From Gammaproteobacteria bacterium (GTDB lineage Bacteria; Pseudomonadota; Gammaproteobacteria; Ga0077536), in the NCBI GenBank assembly GCA_009692365.1, contig SHZJ01000012.1, positions 1 to 64,000 of the forward strand: DNA of 64,000 nucleotides, read 5' to 3'. The translations under genes were made by a program, and so were the position numbers. The notes under the pieces were generated by a model. That model worked only from the letters and a program-made list of their open reading frames with translations, had not been told where the DNA came from and made no database searches. The number at the start of each line of letters is the position of its first letter. Positions within the stretch are counted from its first letter, which is position 1. Shown piece by piece: positions 61,534 through 63,873 of this stretch.

Positions 61534-61995
61534 TCACCCGCCCCCGCCATCGTGGCCCCGCGCCGGCGAAAACGATGGCAGGTGCCAGCCTGCCAGGATG
61601 GCGCCGGCGCGCACGCCAAAACCCAACGCAATCCCCAAGTCGGTCGCCCAGAGGCTAGCGGCACCCAGAGCGACCACCAGGAGGCAGGCCATCGAGCCGG
61701 CGAGCGCAGCGCTGATATAAACCTCCCGGTTGAATAGCGGGTGAGTAGCACGCAGGGCACGCCCGCCAGCCCATTGCGCGCCACCCCGCCAAAAGTTGCC
61801 GTCCGCAGGCCCATCACCACCCCCACCGGCGAGGGAAGACCCAGCGCCGGGGCTTTGGCCGCCCCCACCACGGCCTGCACGGGCAGACCCACCGCGTCGA
61901 GCCACCACAGCGCCCACCGGGGCGCGCGCGCGGCCGGGTACTGCCCCTGGCTGCGCAAAAAGGCCGCAGCGCTCGCGTCGGGTGCAGGCCAGCAC
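61534..61995 (-). pseudogene. Decayed TRIC/UPF0126 membrane channel (YicG-like)
   Basis: Two reverse frames together give a recognisable second half of a UPF0126/TRIC channel. The first carries WWLDAVGLPVQAVVGAAKAP, LGLPSPVGVVMGLRTATFGG and a VARNGLAGVPCVLL stretch. The second continues with LFNREVYISAALAGSMACL, LLVVALGAASLWATDLGI and ALGFGVRAGAILAGWHLP. A single frame change at about 61740-61750 separates them, and the first half of the family's two-fold repeat (with its GGGxxRD loop) is missing or unrecognisable. Glycine-rich motifs are also degraded. Confidence 0.65.
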
Positions 61996-62766: not shown

Positions 62767-63221
62767 CTTAACTCTCCTTCCTAGCGTGCTGACCAAGCGC
62801 ACTTGCCCGCTGCCAAACCGGGCAACAGCAACGGCACATTTAGCCAACCCGGGCGCGTCCCGTGCGGCGACCAGCGGGCTACCCACCCTTGATTTTTTAG
62901 CGGCGGGGCACGCAGGCTCACCCAGCGCGCCAGCCTTGGCGCAGGCTAGGCCCAAGCCTACTCCGCGTGCGCCACCAGCGGAACGCTTGGTGCCGTGCCC
63001 CGCCAGACTAGGGCGCGGCGCACAGCACCCCGGCATTTTTGCGGTGGTGGCGCGGCTCGCTCGCTGGGCGGCGTCAGGCCGCAACCCGCTGCAGTGCCGC
63101 GATCCCGCTGCGGTCAGGCACCCCATCACCGGCGCTGGACAGTGCTCCAAGACCGCCCGCGCCGTGCCCATGAACAGAGCACTTAAGCCTTCGTTTTTCG
63201 TTAATCTGACCGGGAGCAAGC
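62767..63221. other. Intergenic region between diverging genes
   Basis: 455 bases with no gene I can support; GC-rich frames on both strands lack family features. GGGAGC lies four bases before the next ATG. Confidence 0.4.
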
Positions 63222-63873
63222 ATGAGTCTAGCGCCGCAATTACACTTAATCGGTGAGGGGGCGAAGTCGAAAATCCCGTCCGACGTGCGCGCGGTGATGG
63301 CCCAAGCAACGGCGACTCTGCGTTCCTCAGGCATTGTGGCGGGCACGATTAAGATCGGTGCACGCCGACCGGCATTCTCCTTGCCAAGCGCCGGCGGTAA
63401 CTCGGTGTCGTCGTCCGGGCTTGCTGGGCAAAGGCCCGCTCGTGCTGAGCGTTTTTCGCGGTCACTGGTGACCCTACTGCCTAGCAGAGCGCTACGCTTT
63501 GCAGGAAATTGTGACCCCGCTACGGGCGCTGGGCGCCCGTGTGGTGGCGGTGTCGCCGCAGCTGCCTGAACCCAGCTTGAGTACCATTGAGAAGCACGCG
63601 CTGAGCTTCGACATCCTGCGTGATGCGGGCAACGCCTACGCGGCGCAACTGGGTTTGCGCTTTGCTTTAGCGCCGGAGCTGCTGCCCATTTATCGCAGCT
63701 TTGGCATCGACCTGCCCGCGTGTAACGGCGACGACAGCTGGACCTTGGCCATGCCGGCCCGGCTAGTCATCGATGCGGCGGGCATGGTGCGTGCGAGCGA
63801 TATCGACCCCGACTACACGGTGCGACCAGAGCCGGAGAAAACGCTCGAAGACTTGCGAAAACGCCTGCGCTAA
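63222..63873 (+). pseudogene. Peroxiredoxin-like (AhpC/TSA) gene with UGA at the catalytic Cys and a frameshift
   Basis: From ATG 63222 the first 60 codons give a normal N-terminus of a peroxiredoxin-like family: AVMAQATATLRSSGI, then KIGARRPAFSLPSAGGNSVS. The frame then has to change by one base at about 63405-63420 to continue GLLGKGPLVLSVFRGHW-stop-PYC. The stop is TGA at 63469-63471, exactly where the family has the peroxidatic Cys in RGxWCPYC; the second Cys is present. After it the frame is open to 63873: ALGARVVAVSPQLPEP, LSFDILRDAGNAYAAQLGLR, NGDDSWTLAMPARLVIDAAG. Most likely a pseudogene, but a selenocysteine codon is possible; see findings. Confidence 0.8.

Follow-up and report, generated by a model that had tools for sequence, protein, structure and literature searches.

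An inherited candidate selenocysteine codon in a probably decayed peroxiredoxin-like gene of a gammaproteobacterial draft genome

The locus and its interrupted reading frame

The window analysed here is a stretch of 64,000 nucleotides (contig C78:1-64000) from a draft genome of 3.45 Mb that is in 79 contigs and 93% complete. Close to its end lies a peroxiredoxin-like (Prx-like) gene whose features are collected in Table 1. As read from the sequence, a TGA at 63469-63471 interrupts the frame LLGKGPLVLSVFRGHW-U-PYCLAERYALQEIV..., also written LLGKGPLVLSVFRGHW-U-PYCLAERYALQ..., which runs on to the TAA at 63871-63873 (+). With the TGA read through, the product matches PF00578 (AhpC-TSA) at 6.9e-15, with 55.5 bits against a cut-off of 26. 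The original prediction placed this in-frame TGA at the position of the reactive Cys in RGxWCPYC proteins, and both the translation and the relatives agree. It had also proposed a one-base change of frame upstream of the TGA, and the half that begins at ATG 63222 does sit in a different frame. Since both halves align gaplessly to the 216-codon gene of an intact relative, L023, the window copy has one surplus base at approximately 63411-63420; it is thus not open from start to stop apart from the UGA, whereas its relatives are. The gene is the sole PF00578 match with an internal TGA in this genome, and a search of the same genome for a second copy found none.

Table 1. Features of the Prx-like gene in the window
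Feature	Coordinates	Strand	Evidence
GGGAG, Shine-Dalgarno-like, 5' of ATG	63212..63216	+	sequence; GGAG/AGGA-type sites at the same place in relatives
N-terminal part of gene (MSLAPQL...SVSSSG), first frame	63222..63419	+	gapless alignment to start of L023 (216 aa); separate match
Stretch with one-base length difference (frameshift)	63411..63420	+	frames of the halves differ by one; 0/24 relatives
C-terminal part (LLGKGPLV...DLRKRLR, stop TAA), second frame, AhpC-TSA	63421..63873	+	PF00578 6.9e-15; 74% identity to L023
TGA, candidate Sec position = family codon 83, U of U-P-Y-C	63469..63471	+	shared by 24 non-redundant relatives; homologues have a Cys codon
TGC, second (resolving-type) Cys of UxxC	63478..63480	+	family-invariant
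Hairpin 5' arm GCAGAGC	63484..63490	+	99.4% of cells paired in 24 relatives; model match
Apical loop GCTAC	63491..63495	+	24/24 relatives have TGTAY or TGGAH; conserved UG[U/G] lost here
Hairpin 3' arm GCTTTGC	63496..63502	+	relatives' alignment, pairing, covariance model

Decayed DNA is present near the gene. At 61559-61922, 1.3 kb upstream, part of a Gly_transporter (PF03458) membrane protein gene is duplicated in a broken frame, with 88% identity over 364 bases to C78:64145-64497. A longer, open copy of the transporter gene (L013:4124-5032) lies directly downstream of the Prx-like gene.

The hairpin behind the UGA and its evolution

The predicted hairpin on the 3' side of the TGA is indeed found, at 63484-63502, and can fold in two ways. 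One form has 7 bp and a 5-nt loop, 19 nt from the UGA (-8.7 kcal/mol); the alternative has 8 bp and a 3-nt loop, 20 nt from the UGA (-9.9 kcal/mol). The fold prefers the extra pair, leaving a CUA triloop, and RNA folding gives the G at 63491 a probability of 0.875 of pairing in the stem. The original description of a loop that starts with G therefore holds for the less stable 7-pair form only; in the 8-pair form this G is part of the stem. The bSECIS model (PMC13188914 Fig. 2A) calls for a loop of 3-9 nt that has a G as its first or second base, usually with G or U next, an upper stem of 4-16 bp, a UGA-to-loop distance of 16-37 nt and an MFE of at most -7.5. The window hairpin agrees with this model in size, spacing and MFE; its loop offers a G only with the top pair open, and the next base is C. 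The relatives share the form GCRGAGC-UGUAY-GCUYUGC, with the loop 19 nt after the UGA and UGGAH as the loop in four of them, so that the loops of all 24, with UGU or UGG, carry the G of the model.

By itself such a hairpin is weak evidence, because an equally long one falls in the SECIS range after approximately 6% of all TGA trinucleotides in the window; it is the comparison with relatives that makes it significant. Of the 67 conserved degenerate columns, just three are limited to one codon (GAG, CTG and GCT), and all three lie within the hairpin; gene-wide, the same residues are encoded by these codons in 51%, 37% and 14% of cases. With the window sequence left out of its construction, a covariance model scores 63469-63510 at 45.5 bits, compared with 14.5 for the next best place in the genome and 12.0 for the Cys homologue L056, and no conserved hairpin is present in the Cys homologues read at the DNA level. 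Covariation proper is weak since the stem hardly varies: one pair has changes on both sides, a result that 239 of 500 shuffles reach. The SECIS assignment accordingly rests on codon freezing, on the contrast with the Cys forms and on spacing, and covariation is not part of its basis. An Rfam search returned no SECIS family at the site.

Searching the genomes of 58 relatives for the Prx-like gene yielded TGA-containing matches, with one TGA each, in about 25 genomes, all from the same taxonomic family. In every intact relative the TGA is exactly codon 83 and the frame is otherwise open. Homologues from the other families of the class carry Cys, as far as their motif was read. TGA and hairpin likewise occur together in two Geobacteraceae MAGs (L059, L060) and in a complete genome from elsewhere in the phylum (L158). 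The original prediction had named Cys in relatives that lack a conserved hairpin as one finding that would count against it, and the relatives instead keep both TGA and hairpin. On the tree the Sec forms cluster, with 2 changes against a shuffled mean of 16.9, and the window copy falls inside this cluster with support of 97/85. A single Cys form, L056, is nested within the cluster, and this arrangement suggests one gain of Sec and one change from Sec to Cys. Judged by these sequence comparisons, the TGA is the inherited Sec codon of a U-x-x-C Prx-like family.

Several observations accompany this survey. L056:3001-3441 comes from an alphaproteobacterial MAG and has lost the hairpin along with the Sec codon; either a Sec-to-Cys change or transfer of the gene appears to be responsible. 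The window's taxonomic family also contains a second Sec family, distant from the first (L184-L189, in G013, G026, G029, G018, G017 and G032); its protein reads FFRGHW-UPYCVAELRRWEELRP, has a hydrophobic N-terminal stretch, and is accompanied by a conserved hairpin of its own around GCCGAGTTACGGC. We found no copy of this type in the window's genome. In G022, a second copy of the Prx-like Sec gene (L183, G022:C87:91500-94686) is interrupted by about 1.8 kb, part of which by eye resembles a HigBA-type toxin-antitoxin pair. Finally, three records titled as Klebsiella pneumoniae MAGs (L052, L053, L055) contain the Prx-like Sec gene; their matching genomes lie in the window's taxonomic family (that of L052 is G004, of the same genus), and the organism name looks wrong.

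Selenocysteine machinery, predicted function and known families

An absence of sel genes from the genome had been put forward as a further argument against selenocysteine, and the genome proves to carry them: selA (C79:19793-21142, 555 bits), selB (C79:21163-23058, 427 bits) and the gene for tRNA-Sec (C79:23135-23227, 68.4 bits, anticodon tca) are consecutive on contig C79, with open frames for selA and selB. No selD above the family cut-off was detected in this 93% complete assembly, and two genes flanking selD in G004 have no match in it either. The absence of selD may be an assembly gap, since the tRNA-Sec gene lies approximately 0.6 kb from the end of contig C79 and both of the tested neighbours are missing. 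Within the same taxonomic family selA exceeds its cut-off in 31 of 36 genomes, as against none of 22 from the other families of the class, and selD is found in nearly all genomes of the family, often in a long fused form (about 740-800 aa) whose N-terminal part is of NDH type; Ndh-SelD fusions have been described (PMC2398784). The Prx-like gene appears closely tied to selenium use, because the gene order in G002 is selA-selB-tRNA-Sec-Prx with NDH-selD convergent, and because its coordinates place it at most 0.6 kb from selD in five genomes (G013, G018, G021, G024, G034). Near NDH-selD in G004 there is also a ResA-like selenoprotein gene of the WAxxUGC type (L144:10436-11692), with an in-frame TGA at codon 163 of our reading and 294 bits against NF041054, for which the cut-off is 300; the window's genome yielded no match to it.

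The predicted structure of the intact relative L023 has a peroxiredoxin fold (pLDDT 96.8) in which residue 83 stands immediately before a helix at 84-94. Its best PDB matches are BcpB and Bcp4, and the nearest structures are peroxiredoxins of the bacterioferritin-comigratory type and AhpE. We envision that in intact relatives the hairpin, 12 nt past the UGA at codon 83, would be where SelB delivers Sec-tRNA(UCA), so that Sec would be inserted where the first helix of the thioredoxin fold begins. There it could attack a peroxide or a disulfide, to be resolved by the Cys three residues on. By analogy with the established chemistry of this fold, the product would be a Sec peroxidase or thiol-disulfide oxidoreductase with Cys86 as the resolving residue.

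UxxC Prx-like selenoproteins are known from the Sargasso Sea and GOS metagenomes (PMC1088965, PMC2398784), and the window gene is probably a further, probably decayed, member of this published family. It shares the AhpC/TSA (PF00578) fold family with the Prx-like 1 and Prx-like thiol:disulfide oxidoreductase selenoproteins (PMC1088965, PMC2398784, PMC13188914 table, WP_010940744.1) and, as in those proteins, the Sec position lies in a thioredoxin-like UxxC motif with a bacterial SECIS right behind the UGA; unlike them the window copy is frameshifted, and the subfamily is likened by description rather than by sequence alignment. The cd02970 peroxiredoxin-like family protein (UxxS; PMC13188914 table), also likened by description, is likewise AhpC/TSA with Sec at the reactive-Cys position, but it has Ser where the window gene has Cys as the second residue (UPYC). 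Similarity between L023 and the SelL-related redox protein NF040769 is weak (2e-4, 21/120 bits, far under the cut-off). The Cys forms named "peroxiredoxin-like family protein" in plasmid records are about 50% identical over nearly the whole query; all matches in that plasmid search were below 60% identity, the best at about 51%. RGxWCPYC forms occur among the homologues, and the Cys homologues read at the DNA level have a Cys codon and lack a conserved hairpin.

Automatic annotation splits such genes in two or labels them pseudogenes. For a Prx-like UPYC selenoprotein, the comparison described here shows a clear SECIS, frozen at synonymous sites, across one Sec-using taxonomic family known mostly from draft genomes, together with a close link between this gene and the selA-selB-selC locus.

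State of the window copy and competing readings

The idea of selenocysteine at this codon thus stands for the family, on the strength of the conserved UGA, the SECIS and the presence of selA, selB and tRNA-Sec, and falters for the window copy as a working selenoprotein gene, given its frameshift, its altered loop dinucleotide, its lost invariant residues and the selD that was not found. The frameshift is unique to the window copy and absent from the 24 relatives. So is the loop GCUAC, where 24 of 24 others have UG[U/G]. The window copy has Arg for Leu at alignment columns 22, 48 and 89 and Ala for Pro at column 175, all four invariant in 12 other relatives; the loop change and the substitution at column 89 fall in one codon. 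The end branch of the window copy on the tree measures 0.37, compared with 0.20 and 0.26 for its sisters. The decayed transporter duplicate 1.3 kb upstream also speaks for decay. We therefore favor, with moderate confidence, a model in which a Sec-containing Prx-like (AhpC/TSA, U-P-Y-C) gene has recently decayed in this genome and the window copy has probably lost its function. In this scenario the one-base frameshift would part the start from the UGA and the SelB-recognition loop would have changed from UGUA(Y) to GCUA(C), alongside several altered family-invariant residues, with selA, selB and tRNA-Sec staying intact as the Prx-like gene decays. Any decay is recent, because pN and pS between the window copy and L023 (0.209 and 0.626) are near those of an intact pair, L023 and L025 (0.177 and 0.574). 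If the gene is indeed decaying, it would represent a natural knock-out in a sel-positive genome, with a bearing on which parts of the trait go first.

The substitution pattern of a selected gene is also what would be expected if the gene were intact and made a selenoprotein. The frameshift would then be an assembly error or a minority variant, and the two-base change in the loop might be one as well. We regard this as possible and clearly the less probable reading. Several features fit it: selA, selB and tRNA-Sec are undamaged; the start codon, ribosome site and stem are retained and there is no further stop; odd residues in the window copy (5 of 74) are no more frequent than in the intact relatives L030 and L034; with the top pair open, the alternative loop still begins with G; and the assembly is a draft of 79 contigs at 93% completeness. 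Against it, an error would have to account for two separate oddities as well as for the Leu-to-Arg changes at invariant columns, and indel errors are not common in the window, since its other genes are mostly long open frames.

The preferred model of a decayed gene could be extended to a genome that is losing the Sec trait altogether, with selD gone, the selenoprotein gene decaying and selABC persisting. This extension is doubtful. It would fit the failure to find selD and its G004 neighbours, including the WAxxUGC selenoprotein gene, and the status of the Prx-like gene as the only internal-TGA match to PF00578; set against this are the 93% completeness of the genome, the contig end near selABC, the lack of damage in selA, selB and selC, and a selenoprotein search of the genome that covered few families. 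Were it correct, the frame and the SelB-recognition loop, and perhaps selD, would have been lost while selA, selB and tRNA-Sec were still intact.

Two further readings fare far worse. Programmed +1 frameshifting upstream combined with Sec recoding, in one message, would agree with a substitution pattern like that of purifying selection across the whole gene, but it is highly improbable, since no relative has the frame change and, reading the sequence, we recognised no slippery motif at 63405-63420. Equally remote is an ordinary Cys-type Prx-like gene in which TGC or TGT mutated to TGA during decay beside a chance hairpin: the frequency of equally long hairpins after the window's TGAs and the frameshift itself speak for it, but a TGA in the intact frames of all the nearest relatives contradicts the mutation, synonymous-site freezing in those relatives rejects the chance hairpin, and the window copy branches inside the Sec cluster.
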